Source: Deltaproteobacteria bacterium (GTDB taxonomy: Bacteria; Desulfobacterota; Binatia; UBA9968; JAJDTQ01). From it: a stretch of DNA of 64,000 nucleotides. Made by a program: the position numbers and the translations under genes. The notes beneath the pieces are model-generated. The model saw nothing but the letters and a program-made list of their open reading frames with translations, did not search any database and was not told the origin of the DNA. Each line of letters opens with the position of its first letter. Position 1 is the stretch's first letter. Where the stretch lies: positions 1 through 64,000 of the forward strand of contig JAPPNF010000156.1 in NCBI GenBank assembly GCA_028818755.1. The letters run 5' to 3'. Shown here piece by piece: positions 39,816 through 48,806 of the stretch.

Positions 39816-40586
39816 TCACGGCTCGATGTCGTGGCGGCGCTGCCGTAGCGAAAGGGTGTTGCTGCCGCCCAGCTCGATGGTCCTTCCCCACAGGCCGCGC
39901 GCGCGGTCGCTGAGCAGGAACGCCGCCACCGCGGCCACCTCCGTGACCGAAAGGGCCTCGTCCGCGTACGCCGGACGGGAGCCCGCACGGGGCTCCTCGC
40001 GGCGGCCGGCGGCCACGGGTATTCGGACCGGCGCGGGCACCAGCACATTCAGGGTCACGTTGTCGCCGGCCACCTCCGCGGCGACGGATTGAATCCACGC
40101 CGGCAGCGCGGCGCTCGTGACCGAATGGACGTGTCTCTCGGTTCCGGTGCGGGCGATGGGCCACGGAACCATCCACAGCACCCGGCCCCAGCGGCGGCGC
40201 CGCATGCCGGGCAGGAGCGTCTCGGTGGCGGCCTTGAAACGCAGGAAACCGGCTTCGAGCTGCGACCTCCACGAGAGAGAGCGCGGGTCCTCCCGCGGCG
40301 CGCGCCGGGCGATCCCGAACAGGATGTCGATGGCGCCGAAGTCCGCGGCGACGCGCTCCACGAGGGCGGTGGCCGACGCTTCGTCCCAGGCGTCCAGGGG
40401 GTAGCCCGCGGCCCTGACGCGGCCTCCCTCCGCCGCCTCGGCCGCGACCCTTCGCGCCGCCCACTCCTTGCGGGCGCACACCGCCACGTTGGCGCCCTCG
40501 GCCGCGAGGGCTCCGGCCACGGCCCGGCCGATGCCCCGGGACCCGCCGAACACCAGCGCGCTTCTGCCCTTGATGCCGAGATCCAC
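39816..40586 (-). CDS. SDR-fold protein without catalytic residues, in the MNIO operon
   Basis: A 256-residue Rossmann protein starting at GTG 40586, 9 bp after the small membrane-peptide gene. The cofactor loop FGGSRGIGRAVAGALAAEG is perfect, so NAD(P) is probably bound. The rest of the active site is gone: the NAG motif reads FGIA, the catalytic Ser is absent (VLWMVPWP) and Y-x-x-x-K reads H154-SVT-S158. It is last in an operon with MNIO, partner and exporter genes. It may be a sensor, a scaffold or an enzyme of unknown mechanism. It is convergent with the deacetylase gene, 12 bp away. Confidence 0.8.
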   Translation of the reverse strand: MDLGIKGRSALVFGGSRGIGRAVAGALAAEGANVAVCARKEWAARRVAAEAAEGGRVRAAGYPLDAWDEASATALVERVAADFGAIDILFGIARRAPREDPRSLSWRSQLEAGFLRFKAATETLLPGMRRRRWGRVLWMVPWPIARTGTERHVHSVTSAALPAWIQSVAAEVAGDNVTLNVLVPAPVRIPVAAGRREEPRAGSRPAYADEALSVTEVAAVAAFLLSDRARGLWGRTIELGGSNTLSLRQRRHDIEP

Positions 40587-40595
40587 GACCGTCGG

Positions 40596-40736
40596 TCAGG
40601 GACGCGACAGTTTCAAGAGGCCCGCCAATGCCGCCAGCAGCGCGTACTGCGCGAGAAGCGCCGCGTAGCGGGTCAGCAGCCACAAACACCGTCCGGCCAG
40701 GGGGATGATCCCCTCCCTGTGCGGCGACCTATCCAT
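40596..40736 (-). CDS. 46-residue membrane peptide in the MNIO operon
   Basis: This small ORF starts at ATG 40736, 8 bp inside the end of the ABC exporter gene, and ends 9 bp before the SDR-like gene. Its translation begins MDRSPHREGIIPLAGRC and ends AALAGLLKLSRP. Residues about 15-42 form one hydrophobic helix, with a basic, hydrophilic N-terminus and a single Cys at 17. Tight overlap and operon position support a real gene. It could be the substrate of the MNIO enzyme and exporter, a small subunit of the exporter or an immunity-like peptide. I do not recognise it. Confidence 0.6.
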   Translation of the reverse strand: MDRSPHREGIIPLAGRCLWLLTRYAALLAQYALLAALAGLLKLSRP

Positions 40737-42618
40737 TGCTCACCTCCATTCTCTGCCGCACGGGGAGTATCGGCGGCCGCTCCCCGGCCAGACCCCGTAG
40801 CAGCTCCGTTTCCGTGCGCACCATTTCGGCAAAGTACCCGGCTCCCCGGACCAACTCCGCCGGAGTGCCGTGCTCGACGATCTTTCCGTCACGCAGACAG
40901 ATGATGCGGTCCACGTGACGCAGAGCGGACAGCCGGTGGGCGATGACGATGACCGTCCGGCCCTGGGCCAGTTCGCGGATGTTCTCCTGGATGCGCCCCT
41001 CGTCCTGTTTGTCCAGGGAGCTGGTGGCTTCGTCCAGAATCAACAGGCTTCGCCAATGGAACAACGCCCGGGCCAGCGCGATGCGCTGCCGTTCGCCGCC
41101 CGAGAGGATCGTGCCCCGGGCGCCGATCCGGGTCGCGTAGCCCTTGGGCGTTCGGGTGATGAACTCGTGGGCGCAGGCCGCCCTGGCCGCCGCCGTGATG
41201 CGCGCCATGTGGTGCCGGCCCGAATCCAGCGCGATGTTGTCCGCGATGCTGCGCCGAAAGATCGGATAGTCCTGCTCCACCGTGCCGATGTGGCCGCGGA
41301 CCCAGACCGGGTCGACGACCGCGGCGTCCGTTCCGTCCAGCAGCACGCGTCCCTCGGCGGCGAGGTGGAGTCTCAGGATCAGGCGCCCCACGGTGCTCTT
41401 GCCCGAACCCGACGGGCCCACGATGCCCAGGGCCTCGCCGGGCTCGACCTCGAACGTCACGCCGTCCAGGGCATTTCGGTCCGCGTCCGGATAGCGGAAA
41501 CGCACGTCCTCGAACCGGACCGCTCCCTTGAAGGACGGCAGCCTGACGAGGTGCCCGTCCTGGCGCTCGGTGGGTTCGTCGAGCACCGCTCCCAACTCCT
41601 TCACCAGGCCCCGGAGCCGGGAAAAGTCATAGGCGAACAGGCACAGCCGCATCATCGGTTGAGAGAAGCGCATGTTCACCAGGTTGACCGCCACGAGCTG
41701 TCCCAGCGAGAGCTGCCCGTCGAGCACCATGGACGCTCCGAACCACAGCAGCCCGGCGGTGCCGAGGCGGTTCACGAACTGGTTGTACTGGGTCATGGAT
41801 TCGCGCAGGTTCTGGGCATCCTCTTCGGACGATACCGCCTCGCCCACCCGCTGTGTCAGGAAGGCTTCCTGAGCCTGTTCGGCGTGCATCCCCTTGACGG
41901 TCTCGATACCGTTGAAGGTATCGAGCACGGCTTCGTTGCCCTCCCGCCGGCTGCCCTTGGTGCGTTGGGCCCATTGCCGCAAGGTCGGCATCACCACGAA
42001 GGCCGGGGCGATGTAGAGGGGCAGGCAGCACAGGATGATCAGCGAGAGAGTGAGGCTGAAGTTGAGCATCAGGGCCAGGAACGCCAGCACGAAGACGATG
42101 TCCACGAAGACGAACACCACGGCGTTGGTCAGGAAGCGGCGCAGGTGCTGCAGCTCTTCGATGCGGGAAAGGGTCTCGACCGCCGTGTTGCGCAGGTAGA
42201 AGGAGGCCGGAAGCTCCAGGGAATGGCGGACGAGCCTCGAGAGCAGCGTGCGGTCCATGTCCCGCACGGCGTGGCGCAGGGCCTTGTGGCGGGCGCCCCG
42301 AAGGACGGCCTCGAACGCCAGGAAAAAGAGGAGGCTCACGATGATGACGTCGAGGGTGGCGGCGCCGCGGTTGGATATGACCTTGTCGATGATGATCAGG
42401 AAGGCGAAGGGGTAGATGTAGCCCAGCAGGTTCACGAAGAAAGACGCCGCCACCAACGGCCCGAAGACCATCTTGTTGTCGAACAGGTGCCGGAGGATGG
42501 ACCCCAATGAGAAGCCTTGGTCCGATGAGGGCGCGTCCGCCGCCGCACTTTGTTCTACGGAACCGGGGTCGCCGGCGGGTGTGAAACGCTTGTCTGCGGT
42601 AGTGCCGTCCTCAGCCAC
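40729..42618 (-). CDS. Type-I secretion ABC exporter (HlyB/LapB-like, no C39 peptidase)
   Basis: A 629-residue membrane ATPase starting at GTG 42618, which overlaps the partner gene by 8 bp. The membrane domain (about 55-330) begins FGPLVAASFFVNLLGYIYPFAFLIIIDKVI as in HlyB. The nucleotide domain has Walker A GPSGSGKST, signature LSGGERQRIALARAL, Walker B LLILDEATSSLD and switch His in VIAHRLSA. The first 40 residues are short and low-complexity, with no C39 peptidase Cys/His, so no leader is cut by this protein. No HlyD adaptor is in the window. It likely exports the product of the MNIO operon. Confidence 0.9.
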   Translation of the reverse strand: MAEDGTTADKRFTPAGDPGSVEQSAAADAPSSDQGFSLGSILRHLFDNKMVFGPLVAASFFVNLLGYIYPFAFLIIIDKVISNRGAATLDVIIVSLLFFLAFEAVLRGARHKALRHAVRDMDRTLLSRLVRHSLELPASFYLRNTAVETLSRIEELQHLRRFLTNAVVFVFVDIVFVLAFLALMLNFSLTLSLIILCCLPLYIAPAFVVMPTLRQWAQRTKGSRREGNEAVLDTFNGIETVKGMHAEQAQEAFLTQRVGEAVSSEEDAQNLRESMTQYNQFVNRLGTAGLLWFGASMVLDGQLSLGQLVAVNLVNMRFSQPMMRLCLFAYDFSRLRGLVKELGAVLDEPTERQDGHLVRLPSFKGAVRFEDVRFRYPDADRNALDGVTFEVEPGEALGIVGPSGSGKSTVGRLILRLHLAAEGRVLLDGTDAAVVDPVWVRGHIGTVEQDYPIFRRSIADNIALDSGRHHMARITAAARAACAHEFITRTPKGYATRIGARGTILSGGERQRIALARALFHWRSLLILDEATSSLDKQDEGRIQENIRELAQGRTVIVIAHRLSALRHVDRIICLRDGKIVEHGTPAELVRGAGYFAEMVRTETELLRGLAGERPPILPVRQRMEVSNG

Positions 42619-43396
42619 GGTTCTCGTCCCGGGAATCGTTTCCGTCCACCAGCATGAGGCCCTGTGCGGCGAGTCGCTTGACGAGGCTCACGCGGGCGTT
42701 GTCGTCCGTCCCCGCGCCGTTCGAGGCCAGGGGAGACCACTGCGTGGAACGTGCCAGGCGCGCCAGGGTCTCCGGCGCGACTTCCAGCACCTGCGGCTGG
42801 CGGCGCCCGCGGACGGCCAGGACAACGAGGCACACCGGCCGTTGGGGAATAGGCTCGCCGGACCGGCCGGGTTCGAACAGGCACCGCACGTCGTATCGGC
42901 AACGCACCGGAACCGCACACGGGTGCGCGCGGTACCACAAGTCGCGCGACGGTCGCGGGCGCGCCGCGAGGGCCTCGCTCTCCATGGCCGTGGGGCGGAG
43001 GGTCCGGGCCGCGGCCAGCGCCAGCTCTATGGCCGCCACGTCGGCGGCCCACGCCGGCGTCGGCGGCTCCTGGGCGCTCCGTTCCTGGAAATGGTCGTGG
43101 AAGCATTTCGCATCGGGGTAGCGCTCGTAGGTCGTGGGCGGCGACGCGGCCGCGAAGTCGCGCAGGAGTGTCTCGAACCCGTGGCCCAGCAGGGTGGCGG
43201 TGCGTTCGAAGGTCTGGCGGATGCGCTTCATCCGTTTGCTGTAGGAGAACTCGGCTTCCAGCCGGAGCCGCCGGATGTCCATGCCCCGGAGGTCCGGGTC
43301 GTGAGCCGCGGCCTCGAGGTCGCGAGTGCCGAAAATGAAGGCGTGGCTGGTCAGGTGACGCAGCAGGTTCGTCTGGGTGTCAATGAGCCTGTCCAT
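42611..43396 (-). CDS. MNIO partner protein, DUF2063/BufC-like
   Basis: A 261-residue protein whose start overlaps the MNIO gene by 17 bp. The central part FSYSKRMKRIRQTFERTATLLGHGFETLL, FAAASPPTTYERY and WAADVAAIELALAAART follows the DUF2063 pattern of putative DNA-binding or peptide-recognition partners of MNIO enzymes. The C-terminal 60 residues (LEVAPETLARLARS ... VSLVKRLAAQGLMLV) look like a winged helix. Family knowledge: such partners (BufC, MbnC, TglI) bind the precursor leader and present it to the MNIO enzyme. Confidence 0.75.
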   Translation of the reverse strand: MDRLIDTQTNLLRHLTSHAFIFGTRDLEAAAHDPDLRGMDIRRLRLEAEFSYSKRMKRIRQTFERTATLLGHGFETLLRDFAAASPPTTYERYPDAKCFHDHFQERSAQEPPTPAWAADVAAIELALAAARTLRPTAMESEALAARPRPSRDLWYRAHPCAVPVRCRYDVRCLFEPGRSGEPIPQRPVCLVVLAVRGRRQPQVLEVAPETLARLARSTQWSPLASNGAGTDDNARVSLVKRLAAQGLMLVDGNDSRDENRG

Positions 43397-44264
43397 CGCT
43401 AGCGGTCCTTTCTTGCATCGTGGTCTCGCGGATCTGCCGGCGGATACGCATCACGTCCGCGAGAAGCTCGTCGCCCTCCTCGAAGTCGTTGTCGCGTTCC
43501 AGGATCACCGTCCCGGGACGCTGACGGTCGAGGGCGCTCTCCAGCAGGTCCAGTGCCTGCTGCGGCACCGGGTGGCTGTGGTTGTCGGCATGGAAAGGAA
43601 CGTCGAGGTAGGACCGCCGGATCAGCGGTCCGCCGGCGGCGTGAACGTCGGTGACCACGCCCGCCGGCAGTTGGTCCAGGAACGCCCCCGCGTCGATGCC
43701 GTGGTTCCTGGAGTTGACGAACAGGTTCTCGACGTCCAGCAGCAGGCCCACTCCTGTCTCGCGGAACAGCAGGTTGAAGAATTCCGCGTCGCTCATCTCC
43801 GCGTCCGGGAAATCGAAGACGTAGGAGATGTTCTCGATGGAGAAGGGCACCGGGAGACGTGCCTGGACCCGCTGGATCTTGGGGATGAGCATGTCCGCGG
43901 CGGCGCGGGTCTTGGGAACAGGCAGCAGGTTCGCGATGTCGATGCCCGGCACCTTGGTCCATGCCAGGTGCTCGCTGTAGGAAGCGACCTTGAGATCGTC
44001 CACGGCTTCCGCCACCCCGTCCAGGTAGGCTTCGTCGAGGGGCGTGTCCGTGCCGATGGAAAGACCCACCCCATGCAGCACCAGAGGTATGCGGTCCACC
44101 AGGCCGCGGATCGTCTTGCGCGCGTATTCGCCGCCCTTGATGTAGTGGTCCACCGTGATTTCAAGGACGTCGAACCGGTGCAGGTTGGCCAGCGTCCACC
44201 TGGCTATGGGAATGCGAAAGCCGATGCCGACGAGAGGGGACGTGTCTTGAAGCGAAGCGTTCAT
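43380..44264 (-). CDS. MNIO family (DUF692) multinuclear iron oxygenase
   Basis: A 294-residue TIM-barrel protein. ATG 44264 is fixed by a perfect GGAGG 8 nt upstream. The conserved metal residues of DUF692 are all visible: H64 in VLHGVGLSIG, E98/H99 in YSEHLAW, E144/N145 in SIENISY, D177 and N180 in LLLDVENLFVNSRNHG, H208 in VTDVHAAGG, H225/D227/H229 in FHADNHSHP and E256 in ILERDND. Family members (MbnB, TglH, BufB) use two or three irons and O2 to rewrite Cys or other residues of ribosomal peptides. The operon adds a partner and an exporter, so a peptide product is expected. Confidence 0.92.
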   Translation of the reverse strand: MNASLQDTSPLVGIGFRIPIARWTLANLHRFDVLEITVDHYIKGGEYARKTIRGLVDRIPLVLHGVGLSIGTDTPLDEAYLDGVAEAVDDLKVASYSEHLAWTKVPGIDIANLLPVPKTRAAADMLIPKIQRVQARLPVPFSIENISYVFDFPDAEMSDAEFFNLLFRETGVGLLLDVENLFVNSRNHGIDAGAFLDQLPAGVVTDVHAAGGPLIRRSYLDVPFHADNHSHPVPQQALDLLESALDRQRPGTVILERDNDFEEGDELLADVMRIRRQIRETTMQERTASDGQAH

Positions 44265-44470
44265 GCGACCTCCGGGTTCGAGAAGTAGTCGCGCGTCCGA
44301 GGGCGCCGCGCCTGCTGGCGCCCGTCGCGCGTCCGCGAGCACCGCGCCGGCCCGGAGGCCGGCCGGTGCCTACAGCAATACTAATCGTTCCGTCGGCGCC
44401 GAACTTTAGGGTTCAGGACGCGGGAGGGGATAATTTGAGACGGGACCGGAATGGTCGCCGTTCCTGGGGT
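44265..44470 (-). promoter_or_regulatory. Leader region of the MNIO operon with GC-rich hairpins
   Basis: This 206-bp gap separates the amidohydrolase gene from the MNIO gene. A strong stem (GCCGGCC at 44346-44352 with GGCCGGC at 44357-44363, extended by CACCG/CGGTG to 44340-44368) lies in its middle. CGGACGCGCGAC occurs twice on the minus strand further down. An open frame without a start codon ends at the TGA overlapping the MNIO ATG. I found no precursor-peptide gene with a start codon and ribosome-binding site here. Confidence 0.45.
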
Positions 44471-45539: not shown

Positions 45540-45569
45540 TTGCCGCGCATTGTGGTACATTCTCATAGT
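45540..45569 (+). promoter_or_regulatory. Promoter of the YeeE/TsuA-like gene
   Basis: TTGCCG (45540-45545) and CATAGT (45564-45569) are 18 bp apart. The following leader, ATAGTAGACCCTCG then AACGAAAGAGG, is nearly the same as that at 49674 before another gene. The repeated hexamers, spacing and leader support a real promoter type. Confidence 0.6.
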
Positions 45570-45624
45570 AGACCCTCGAACCTCGAAACGAAAGAGGCGA
45601 AACGGAAGAGGAGGGATTGCCCCG

Positions 45625-46650
45625 ATGTTCGAGACGCTCGGGTTCGAGCGCGTCACTCCGCTGCAGGCGTCCGTCGTGCTGGGCCTCGTGCTCGGCGCGG
45701 TCTACGGCGTGCTCGCGCAGCGCAGCCGGTTCTGCCTCCGGCGCAGCCTGGTGGGAGACTGGAGCGAATGCCTCCCGGCGCTCGGCGTCTGGGCCATGGC
45801 ATTGGCTCTGGCGATCGCCGGGACCCAGGCTGCGGTGGCCGCGGGAGTGGTCTCTTTCGACGCGCACCGGTTCCTTTCCCCGGACCTCCCCCTCGTTTCG
45901 GTGCTCGTGGGCGGCGCGCTGTTCGGCGCCGGGATGGTGCTCAGCGGCGGTTGCGTCTCTCGTCTCACGGTCCTCGCCGGCGCCGGCAACCTGCGGTCGG
46001 CCCTCGTCCTGGTGGTCTTCGCGGTGGTCGCCTACGCGACCATGAAGGGGGTGCTGGCGCCGCTGCGCACGACCCTTGGCGACTTGACCGTCGACTCCGG
46101 AGGCGGGGTTGCCTTGACCGCACTGCCCGGCGGGGCGGTCTGGGCCTGGGGTCTGGCTCTCGCCGCCGCGGTCCTGGCGTTGCGCTCGGGCGCGTTGCCG
46201 CGGCACCTGGCGATGGGCGCCGTGATCGGGCTCCTGGTGCCGCTGGGATGGATCGGGACCGGGTTCGTCCTCCTGGATGACTTCGACCCCGTGCCGCTCC
46301 AGTCCCTGGGATTCACCGGGCCCACGGCCGACACGCTGTTCTGGGCCATGGCGGCCACGGCCATCTCCGCGGGGTTCGGAACCGGGCTTGCCGCCGGCGT
46401 GATTGCCGGCAGCGCCGTCGCCGCGGTTTCCGCCGGCGAGTTCCGCTGGAGCAGCCTGGAAGGGCCGCGGCAGACCGGCCGCTATATGGCGGGCGCCGCG
46501 TTGATGGGGACCGGCGGTGTCCTGGCGGGGGGATGCACGGTGGGGGCCGGACTGTCGGGAGTGTCCACCGTGAGCATTGCCGCGATCCTGGCGCTCACGG
46601 CCATGGTGTTGTCGGCGAGAATTACCGGAAGGGTTCTCGCCGACCGGTAG
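45625..46650 (+). CDS. YeeE/YedE family sulfur transporter (TsuA-like)
   Basis: A 341-residue membrane protein with about nine or ten helices. ATG 45625 has GAGGAGGG upstream; the longer frame starts in the promoter and is rejected. Two inverted halves carry the family Cys motifs: SGGCVSRL in the first and AGGCTVGAGLSG in the second, with a further Cys in RSRFCLRRS. In TsuA such cysteines pass thiosulfate through the membrane. Convergent soxYZ and fccAB genes support import of a reduced sulfur species. Confidence 0.88.
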   Translation: MFETLGFERVTPLQASVVLGLVLGAVYGVLAQRSRFCLRRSLVGDWSECLPALGVWAMALALAIAGTQAAVAAGVVSFDAHRFLSPDLPLVSVLVGGALFGAGMVLSGGCVSRLTVLAGAGNLRSALVLVVFAVVAYATMKGVLAPLRTTLGDLTVDSGGGVALTALPGGAVWAWGLALAAAVLALRSGALPRHLAMGAVIGLLVPLGWIGTGFVLLDDFDPVPLQSLGFTGPTADTLFWAMAATAISAGFGTGLAAGVIAGSAVAAVSAGEFRWSSLEGPRQTGRYMAGAALMGTGGVLAGGCTVGAGLSGVSTVSIAAILALTAMVLSARITGRVLADR

Positions 46651-46674
46651 GCGCGGACAGGCTCTCGAGAGTCT

Positions 46675-46767
46675 GTCGGATTACGTTTCGCCAATCCGAC
46701 CTACGGTTCAGACGGCTTACGACGAAGTGCTCCAACTAGGTCGGGTTAGCCGGAGGCGTAACCTGAC
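46675..46767. repeat. Paired inverted hairpin repeats between convergent genes
   Basis: GTCGGATT (46675-46682) pairs with AATCCGAC (46693-46700), and GTCGGGTTA (46740-46748) pairs with TAACCTGAC (46759-46767) with one mismatch. The two units are inverted to each other, since CCGACCTA at 46696 matches TAGGTCGG at 46737. This is a typical dispersed REP/BIME-like pair. It probably also ends transcription of both convergent genes. Confidence 0.65.
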
Positions 46768-46786
46768 AACTATTCGGCCGTACCTA

Positions 46787-48070
46787 TTACCCGAAAATGT
46801 CCTTGGAAATGCCCGCGTACCAGCCGATGGATTCCTCGTAGGTCGCCTTGCGCAGCTCGGCGTTCTCTCCGGTCTTCGAAATGAAGCCGTCGGTCTTGGC
46901 GATCTTCTCGTCGGTGGCCTTGTAGGAGGCGCCGACCTTGACGCCGTCGTCGGTGGCGATGAGCGACCAGCAGGTATTCGAGAAGCGCGCCGGGAACACC
47001 CTGGATTTCGTGAGCGCGCCGCGCACCGCCATGGCGCACACCTTGGCCTGGCTGTTGGCCGAGAACCCGGACTTGGGCATGTCGCCCTGCTGCGACGCGT
47101 CGCCGAGCACGTGGATGTTCTCGTCAGCCCGGCTCTGCATGGTGTGCGGCACCACCGGCACCCAGCCGCCCTTGTTGGTGATGCCCGCGGCCGCGGCGAT
47201 GCGGCCCGCCTGCTGCGCCGGAATGACGTTGCAGACGTCCACCTTCGTGACTTCGCCGTCGATCACCACCTCCATGGACGCCGGGCGCACTTCGACCTTG
47301 TCGCCGCCGAAGTCCGGACCGACCCGCTCGACCATGCCCGGGTAGTGGCGCTGCCAGCCTTCCTCGAAGAGCCCCTGCTTGGAGAACTTGGCCTTGGGGT
47401 CGACGATCAGGATCTTCGCCGTCGGGTTCGACTGCTTCAGCGTGTGTGCGACCATCGAGATCCGCTCGTACGGTCCCGGCGGGCAGCGGAACGGGTTCGG
47501 CGGCGCCACCATGCAATAGACGCCGCCCTGCCGCATGGCGGCCACCTGCGCCTTGAGGAGCTGCGTCTGCGAGCCGGCCTTGTAGGCGTGGGGCATGCGG
47601 TTCTGCTGCGACACGTCCCAGCCCTGCACCGAGCCCGGACGGAAGTCGATGCCGGGGGACAGTACCAGCCGGTCGTAGGCGAGGCTGCCGCCGCCCGCGA
47701 GCCCTACCGTTTTCTGGTCGCGGTCGACGGAGACGGCCCAGTCGTGAACGACGTTGATGCCGTAGGCGGACGCAAGGGTTCCGTAGCTGTGTCCGAGGGA
47801 CTCGAACTCACGGAAGCCGCCGAGGTAGAGGTTCGAGAAAAAGCACGAGTAATAGCGCCGGGTGGGTTCCACCAGGGTCACATCGACGGCGCCTTTCGAA
47901 TCCTTGGCGATATAGCGAGCGGCCGTGGCGCCGCCGGCGCCGCCGCCGATCACCACCACGCGCGGGCGGCTCTTTCCGAGGACGGGATGCGCCCAAAGCG
48001 CCGCCGATGCCGCAACCGTCGATGCCAGGAAGCGGCGCCGGGTCATGCCGCGGTTATTCTTCTTTTTCAT
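46787..48070 (-). CDS. fccB: Flavocytochrome c sulfide dehydrogenase, flavoprotein subunit (FccB/SoxF)
   Basis: A 427-residue FAD protein exported by Tat: the twin-arginine signal is TRRRFLAST, cleaved near PVLG. The dinucleotide fold is VVVIGGGAGGATAARYIA, and the second FAD motif NIHVLGDAS lies near residue 320. Cysteines at C188-like positions (GVYCMVAPPNPFRC, and CWSLIATDDGVK near the C-terminus) may form the redox disulfide. The C-terminal flavin-bind domain of FCSD is present. It oxidises sulfide to sulfur and passes electrons to the cytochrome encoded 13 bp upstream. Confidence 0.92.
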   Translation of the reverse strand: MKKKNNRGMTRRRFLASTVAASAALWAHPVLGKSRPRVVVIGGGAGGATAARYIAKDSKGAVDVTLVEPTRRYYSCFFSNLYLGGFREFESLGHSYGTLASAYGINVVHDWAVSVDRDQKTVGLAGGGSLAYDRLVLSPGIDFRPGSVQGWDVSQQNRMPHAYKAGSQTQLLKAQVAAMRQGGVYCMVAPPNPFRCPPGPYERISMVAHTLKQSNPTAKILIVDPKAKFSKQGLFEEGWQRHYPGMVERVGPDFGGDKVEVRPASMEVVIDGEVTKVDVCNVIPAQQAGRIAAAAGITNKGGWVPVVPHTMQSRADENIHVLGDASQQGDMPKSGFSANSQAKVCAMAVRGALTKSRVFPARFSNTCWSLIATDDGVKVGASYKATDEKIAKTDGFISKTGENAELRKATYEESIGWYAGISKDIFG

Positions 48071-48083
48071 GATGGCTCCCCTT

Positions 48084-48806
48084 TCATCGACCGTTGAGCG
48101 GCCTGCCGAAATACACGGCCAGTGAGGCGATTTCCTCGTCGGACAGGCGCCGGGCGATGGTCTGCATGGCCTGATGTTGCCTCTTGCCGTGCTTGTACGC
48201 CTGTAGAGTTATCACGAAGTCATCGACGGGCCAACCAATGATGGACGGTATGCCCTCATCGGCCCCGTCGGGGCGGTGGCACGTGGTGCACTCGCTCGCC
48301 AGGTAGGCGCCGTATTCCGGGTCGCCGGCGACCGCCAGGAGCCGCGGGGCGAGGCCGAACTCGTCAACGGTCATGGTCGGTTCCGCCGCCGGAAGCCCGG
48401 ACCGGGAGCCCGAAAGGGCGCGCAGCCATGCCAGCAGATCCGCCCGGTCGCTGGCCGCCGCCATGCCGGCGTAGCTCATGCGCGAGCGCGGCACCACCTT
48501 CCGAGGGTTGGCCAGAAAGGCGTCCAGTGTCGCCTCGGTCCAGACCAGCCCGCCGGCCCCGACCTTCTTCATGGCCGGAGAGTAGCGGAACTTCGGGAGT
48601 GAGGCCGCGCGGCGGCCGAACACGTCGTTCAGGTGCGGGCCGATCCGGTGCTTCGCGCCGCGGCCGGCCTGGTGGCAGCGCTTGCATTCCTGGTAGAGCG
48701 CCTTGCCGCGTTGTGTGTCCGCGCCCAAGGCTCCGTTGGCGACAGGAACCACGAGAAGAGCGAGCGCAAGGATCGCGAAACCCGCGGGTTTCGTGAAGCG
48801 GGTCAT
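48084..48806 (-). CDS. fccA: Diheme cytochrome c subunit of flavocytochrome c (FccA/SoxE)
   Basis: A 240-residue periplasmic cytochrome with a Sec signal (cleavage near GALGAD). Two heme-binding motifs are seen: C41-KR-C44-H45 and C173-TT-C176-H177. The distal Met ligands are probably those in YSPAMKKVG or MSYAGM and in the C-terminal segment. It accepts electrons from the FccB flavin and hands them on to the respiratory chain. It is encoded between soxZ and fccB in one operon. Confidence 0.9.
   Translation of the reverse strand: MTRFTKPAGFAILALALLVVPVANGALGADTQRGKALYQECKRCHQAGRGAKHRIGPHLNDVFGRRAASLPKFRYSPAMKKVGAGGLVWTEATLDAFLANPRKVVPRSRMSYAGMAAASDRADLLAWLRALSGSRSGLPAAEPTMTVDEFGLAPRLLAVAGDPEYGAYLASECTTCHRPDGADEGIPSIIGWPVDDFVITLQAYKHGKRQHQAMQTIARRLSDEEIASLAVYFGRPLNGR

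Follow-up and report, generated by a model that had tools for sequence, protein, structure and literature searches.

An MNIO operon with a type I exporter

Among the described systems of the MNIO superfamily, the captophorins, bufferins and oxazolin (BufBC, HvfBC and FonBC) combine the enzyme with a partner protein and a Cys-rich substrate carrying Cys-Gly dyads, and TglHI of the 3-thiaglutamate (pearlin) pathway acts on a peptide that carries a C-terminal Cys. PMC12452194 and PMC13097082 connect the Cys-rich products known for MNIOs with copper, and the adjamnio-I precursors, which in PMC12452194 accompany an MNIO and a PME-type 2 partner, are 122-293 residues long and contain 8-21 Cys. Here we analysed a 64,000-nt stretch of DNA (the window) from a Deltaproteobacteria bacterium (contig JAPPNF010000156.1), in which five minus-strand genes encode an MNIO enzyme, its partner, an HlyB-type ABC exporter, a 46-residue membrane peptide and a protein of the short-chain dehydrogenase/reductase (SDR) fold. 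These genes are probably the biosynthesis-and-export operon of a split system for ribosomally synthesized and post-translationally modified peptides (RiPPs), whose products would be MNIO-modified, type-I-exported and possibly of a microcin-like family. The preliminary description knew of no MNIO pathway with this set, and none was found in the open-access literature: no paper contained both 'MNIO' and 'HlyD', and the main text of PMC12452194 uses none of the terms 'T1SS', 'type I secretion', 'HlyD' and 'ABC transporter'. Its proposal of an undescribed peptide-modification system holds for a conserved pathway with a type I exporter, but the gene set was incomplete, the likely precursors, the HlyD adaptor and a TauD-type dioxygenase lying elsewhere.

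Conservation of the operon was assessed in nine genomes of the genus (Candidatus Binatia metagenome-assembled genomes, MAGs; G000, the window's own, and G002-G009, with G007 76% complete), which yielded nine copies (the window and L018-L025) in eight of the genomes. The order MNIO-partner-ABC-SDR, the check that had been suggested, was the same in all nine copies, which is more than chance, and the copies differ only in what lies between the ABC and SDR genes. Identity to the window was 77-84% for the MNIO, 58-80% for the partner, 77-83% for the exporter and 61-74% for the SDR-fold protein. G008 carries two copies, the second of which (L020, G008:C1:3714000-3733500) is a divergent copy of the whole operon; its neighbours, labelled by eye, are transposase-, DNA-methylase- and terminase-like open reading frames (ORFs), suggesting a mobile island. 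The usual DUF2282 precursor of the captophorins and bufferins was, as first described, absent (0/9 genomes, compared with 1 of 14 control genomes).

All five ORFs were confirmed in one direction and closely packed, the first three junctions overlapping by 17, 8 and 8 nt and the last being a 9-nt gap. The 294-residue MNIO enzyme (43380..44264), the candidate modifier of the Cys-repeat core described below, matched PF05114 at 2.2e-73 (247.2 bits against a cut-off of 25); the nearest models, the BufB maturase and HvfB, both stayed below cut-off, and NF050167 gave 205.7 bits against a cut-off of 310. Its structural comparison covered PDB 3bww, 8hci/8hi7 and MbnB. The metal residues attributed to it could be placed: H64, H99, E144, D177, H208, D227, H229 and E256 are invariant over seven sequences, and in line with the match to 3bww they are probably the metal ligands. 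When residues of FonB given in PMC13097082 were placed by eye on the alignment with 3bww, the catalytic Asp249 corresponded to D258, and Arg16 and Phe250 mapped to I18 and N259, replacements that would fit a substrate without the EGKCG motif.

The partner gene (42611..43396) follows that of the MNIO and encodes a helical N-domain and a beta-rich domain. It had been called DUF2063-like; the gene is indeed a partner gene, but the window's protein reached only 14.4 bits against the DUF2063 (PME-type 1) cut-off of 27.2, which sets it apart from the captophorin and bufferin partners, and five of six members gave weak matches only (best E 0.013). Its predicted model (pLDDT 66.9, from six sequences) was instead closest to the TglHI structure: the best Foldseek match was 8hi7 chain A (E 8.5e-5, probability 1.00, TM-score 0.38), taken as TglI from its chain length, and the second was 8hci_A (E 2.1e-3), with TM-scores of 0.38-0.39. 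The fold and the lack of a DUF2063 signature resemble those of the PME-type 2, TglI-like partners. NGO1945 (3dee) was absent among the 50 Foldseek rows shown, and a PDB sequence search with the partner profile returned nothing significant.

The 629-residue exporter (40729..42618) was best matched by TIGR01846 (2e-156, below that model's cut-off). As the alignment covers profile positions 117-693, the N-terminal C39-like, peptidase-like part is absent in the window, in agreement with the earlier view of an HlyB-like exporter without peptidase. By eye, this N-domain is kept in three of the nine copies (L020, L023 and L024); in the two proteins scanned (L020 and L013) it was C39-like and below the Pfam cut-off. 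Anti-phage defence was also considered and set aside: the three PADLOC matches (best mad3, 4.7e-33) all fall on the exporter, mainly on its ATPase part. The SDR-fold protein (39816..40586) matched adh_short_C2 and keeps the NAD(P)-binding motif GGSRGIG in all nine copies. It had been described as lacking active-site residues; at the positions that SDR motifs assign to the catalytic residues, the Lys is missing from all nine copies, but the Tyr is kept in one.

Probable unlinked Cys-repeat precursors, a second locus and a shared promoter pattern

In L020, the ORF directly upstream of the MNIO gene encodes a 32-residue leader, a Cys-Gly run with 16 Cys and a long Ala-rich tail. Used as a query, it led to two precursors on other contigs of the window's genome (C144, 168 residues; C123, 72 residues) and then to 19 in all, which were accepted at E <1e-11 with A1, a profile built from three precursor leaders, and of which each of the nine genomes holds at least one. 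The precursor genes lie outside the window, and the substrate was missed when the window was first read. Every precursor starts with an acidic leader (about 32 residues) that passes into an alternating (Cys-Gly/Ser/Ala)n core, and most end in a variable tail. A clear start is present in 18 distinct precursors, to which the counts for leader and core refer. Their leaders measure 30-33 residues (32-33 if four start at a Met two residues further up) and end in HG or DG; W17 and L19, neither of which is part of the extraction pattern [ED][IV][HD]GCGC, are invariant in all 18. E29, G32 and the first CGC are constant as well, the letters of that pattern being conserved by construction since they were used to extract the precursors. 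The core contains 9-17 Cys (42-53% of its residues), followed by Gly (86), Ser (18) or Ala (11) when cores were ended at the first gap of >3 residues. The 18 cores listed, all starting CGCG, contain no Lys, and seven precursors scanned against Pfam and NCBIfam gave no match better than E 0.02. The excluded nineteenth (L153, G006 C101:10979) has no in-frame Met and a frame-shifted look, its core running into an apparently unrelated frame; with its intact four-transmembrane (4-TM) neighbour it is probably a decaying copy. A weak hit (7e-4) at G008:C1:1007252 (L054) is a 27-residue leader relic with a stop before the Cys core.

These precursors differ from those of the captophorins and bufferins in that they contain no Lys-Cys (EGKCG) or Cys-Lys, carry an acidic leader without a Sec signal by eye, go with a type I exporter and are mostly unlinked. 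A non-Sec precursor is shared with TglHI as described in PMC12452194, from which the Cys repeat and the HlyB/HlyD export set the present system apart. The long Cys-rich proteins of adjamnio-I, with MNIO and PME-type 2 partner, are similar; PMC12452194 describes them as encoded directly before the MNIO, whereas 18 of the 19 precursors here are unlinked. Adjamnio-I could overlap with the present family, the two being set apart here by the description in PMC12452194, not by alignment.

All nine genomes encode an HlyD over the TIGR01843 cut-off, followed by a TauD-type dioxygenase that by eye keeps the HxD...H pattern; in the window's genome the HlyB-type ABC and the HlyD adaptor of a type I secretion set are both present. 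Unlike in HlyB/HlyD secretion as described, the ABC scores below its model's cut-off and the genes lie in two loci in eight of the nine genomes, where HlyD and TauD follow a GPP34 gene, at a larger distance in G009. The window's genome carries this second locus (C20:116354-118639) some 72 kb away from the operon on one contig with it; as it lies outside the window, it was missed at first. In both G008 copies (2/9 overall), HlyD and TauD lie inside the MNIO operon, between ABC and SDR. Independently of the promoter, this fused order speaks for a single system made up of both loci; after its GPP34 gene, G008 has a precursor and a 4-TM gene where the other genomes have HlyD and TauD. A precursor lies upstream of HlyD in five of the eight separate loci (G002, G003, G006, G007 and G009). 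In the window's genome (L113, G000:C20:109000-126000), the sequence before HlyD is similar to its counterpart at the G007 precursor, though no precursor is there. GPP34 and STAS (anti-anti-sigma-type) genes are conserved before the second locus (L114, L117, L118, L119 and L120), and the STAS protein might regulate a sigma factor.

Upstream of the window's MNIO gene lies a putative sigma-28-like promoter, TAAAGTTC-N13-CGATT (44383..44408, minus strand); the window contains no second match, and 0.01 was expected. The pattern TAAAGTYC-N13-CGATT was derived from the regions preceding the MNIO and precursor genes. With small variants allowed, it precedes the MNIO by 143-172 nt in seven of the eight regions examined and the precursor by 69-88 nt in 14 of 18 cases. 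In its exact form with CGATY it matched 23 times in the nine genomes, and the reversed-pattern control gave none. The matches comprise seven MNIO operons, 11 precursors, one HlyD (G005) and four sites elsewhere (G000 C33, G002 C161, G008 2260900 and G008 2053491); in G004 a variant stands directly before HlyD, as the pattern itself does in G005. What counts is the small number of matches elsewhere, the zero control and the match before HlyD, whose upstream regions were not used to derive the pattern. Taken together, the operon and the Cys-repeat precursors are very probably linked. Of the sites elsewhere, two (L082/L083, G008:2260900 and G002:C161) precede related small coiled-coil proteins with a hydrophobic start, and one (L075, G000:C33:25619) precedes a 215-residue protein with a signal-peptide-like start.

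The pattern appears to fit the sigma-28 consensus, TAAAGTTT-N11-GCCGATAA. A FliA/WhiG sigma factor scored over the curated cut-off in eight of the nine genomes (controls 3/14); two of its gene contexts were listed, in which the neighbours look by eye like PtsP, FolE and PepA. The gate protein of flagellar and type III export, FHIPEP, was found in none of the nine (controls 4/14). A sigma-70-type scan of the operon predicted no promoter (shuffles 0.4).

Variable tails, accessory genes and distribution

In the 19 precursor rows, five tails have 6-23 residues and 14 have 63-204, and exactly two tail Cys, 48-64 residues apart, occur in 10. A tail-bearing precursor stands behind one and the same MFS gene in seven of the nine genomes, so that different tails occupy the same genomic place. 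Within 1 kb of seven precursors (G000 C144, G002 C25 (second), G006 C101 (both), G007 C155, G008 989k and G009) lies a member of a 4-TM family, a possible immunity-like candidate judged from its sequence; three founders share 30-41% identity, and two members scanned matched no Pfam family. The family is absent near all four precursors of one tail-similarity group (G002 C25 first, G003 C115 both and G007 C86), near all five short precursors, and at G004 C485, G005 C77 and G008 L020; in G005 a different 3-TM ORF lies near the precursor. With the class II microcins (MccV-like) the present proteins share a Gly/Ala-rich tail with a Cys pair, in several cases a small membrane neighbour, and a type I exporter, whereas they have no double-glycine leader or catalytic C39 domain and add an N-terminal Cys-repeat domain and an MNIO.

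The 46-residue one-helix membrane peptide (40596..40736) contains one Cys and no leader motif and matched no Pfam or NCBIfam-type family. It is intact in four of the nine copies, degenerate in one and absent in four, and is a dispensable accessory; an origin as an HlyD relic was considered, both overlapping the ABC stop. The polysaccharide deacetylase gene adjoins the SDR gene in eight copies, and a DUF6282 gene precedes the MNIO in seven, the G002 contig ending there and L020 being located elsewhere. A conserved small ORF in these loci had been named as a check; by eye, none is common to all copies between the DUF6282 gene and the MNIO, and look-alike short frames occur there in three close relatives (L018, L019 and L022). 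Further upstream (45550-48806), the window holds a block of genes which by eye encode a multi-pass membrane protein, an FAD-type protein and a cytochrome c-like protein; four of eight fetched relatives have the complete set, and a fifth, whose contig soon ends, has the membrane protein. An Rfam scan of the window gave no match.

A scan of genome contigs with the MNIO, which reaches close relatives only, returned five loci, all in this MAG group (four recorded as Candidatus Binatia and one as 'Deltaproteobacteria'). In a 395-genome sample of the phylum, the A2 profile was positive only in the window's own genome, other genus members apparently lying outside that sample, and the MNIO matched 10 other genomes at E <1e-30 with 31-35% identity; three other genomes of the same order gave 29-32%. 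In 10 loci with short flanks and three longer ones, regular expressions found no ABC signature or (C[GSAN])4, and two loose KCG matches were both in implausible frames. Viral contigs gave no match. Plasmids gave none with the one precursor tried or with the partner, and held MNIO in 347 records at best 36-37% identical, one being the DUF2282-DUF692 set of a mer island and another a Streptomyces locus with no Cys-repeat among the plus-strand ORFs listed.

Proposed pathway and competing readings

We propose that a sigma-28-family factor, apparently non-flagellar here to judge from the genomes, may switch on the operon, the unlinked precursors and, in some genomes, the HlyD operon. The TglI-like partner would bind the acidic leader and present the alternating Cys-X core to the MNIO, which would oxidise several Cys, most likely to 5-thiooxazole or related metal-binding groups; chemistry of the thiooxazole type is plausible, at about even chances. 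The TauD-type dioxygenase may add hydroxylations, and the catalytically dead SDR may serve as a scaffold. The HlyB/HlyD pair would then export the product without a catalytic C39 peptidase, and export by this type I secretion system is likely. The least certain step concerns the products, which may be of two kinds: short metallophore-like peptides built on the Cys repeat, and larger proteins that would join the modified repeat to a variable tail. Several of these tails resemble class II microcins and lie next to an immunity-like 4-TM protein. The large forms would most likely serve in antibacterial competition, where the modified repeat would help to bind or take up metal; an antibacterial function of the tailed forms falls somewhat short of an even chance. 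Rather unlikely as a whole is a polymorphic, Trojan-horse-like bacteriocin, in which one MNIO/type I machine would process and secrete unlinked effectors with a common leader, a common metal-binding domain of oxidised poly-(Cys-Gly) and interchangeable membrane-active tails, with cognate 4-TM immunity proteins and under the control of a sigma-28-family factor kept by bacteria without flagella.

Several observations weigh against the proposed split RiPP operon. No modified product was seen, and the partner's fold match has a TM-score of only 0.38, on a model of pLDDT 67. Only the precursor in L020 stands beside an MNIO gene, no 4-TM protein lies beside 12 of the 19, and in the short precursors the tail that could hold a C-terminal type I signal is minimal or missing; the tail classes were defined post hoc, after the data had been seen. 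In G007 precursors and HlyD are present and no MNIO was found, the assembly being incomplete. In the window's genome HlyD lies in two reading frames with no precursor core beside it, and no FliA-type sigma factor scored over cut-off in that draft. The promoter pattern is missing from four of the 18 precursors with a clear start, and in L020 from both the precursor and the MNIO gene; the matches at MNIO and precursor genes are expected by construction, since the pattern was derived there.

Pure copper or metal buffering or acquisition is the alternative that survives best, and we regard it as possible though on the doubtful side: all products would be exported poly-Cys metallophores (captophorin-like), the tails being spacers or secretion signals. 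This agrees with BufB and HvfB as the nearest MNIO models (albeit below cut-off), with the five of 18 precursors whose tail of just 6-23 residues leaves leader and core, and with the copper link of known Cys-rich MNIO products (PMC12452194, PMC13097082). However, the long tails differ at the same genomic place, and several carry a Cys pair and a 4-TM neighbour, which would be needless for a spacer. A further reading, by which the Cys-repeat ORFs would be artefacts of low complexity or structural proteins without modification, and the shared promoter a chance or genus-wide feature, is improbable. GC-rich codon repeats can expand by slippage, the repeat statistics are weak and the promoter pattern came from these very genes, but the non-repetitive leader is conserved at nearly constant length, with W17 and L19 invariant (n=18), and the promoter matched just 23 times in nine genomes, four of them outside the system. 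That the 46-residue peptide is itself the precursor, its gene overlapping the exporter gene in the window, and that the Cys-repeat proteins belong to another pathway is very improbable, and the peptide was rejected as precursor: five of nine copies lack it or have it in degenerate form, and the window's version contains just one Cys. In L020 a Cys-repeat ORF precedes the MNIO, and through the promoter pattern the repeats are connected with the operon.

If the split RiPP reading is true, this would be the first MNIO pathway found in open-access print to be connected with type I secretion, and its substrates, with up to 17 alternating Cys-X units, would put iterative MNIO chemistry to an extreme test. 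The findings also point to a role of a sigma-28-family factor outside the flagellum. RiPP substrates can be overlooked when they are not adjacent to their enzymes, and a common leader together with a common promoter offers a way to find them; in this case it provides testable sets of enzymes, precursors and immunity-like proteins from uncultured bacteria.

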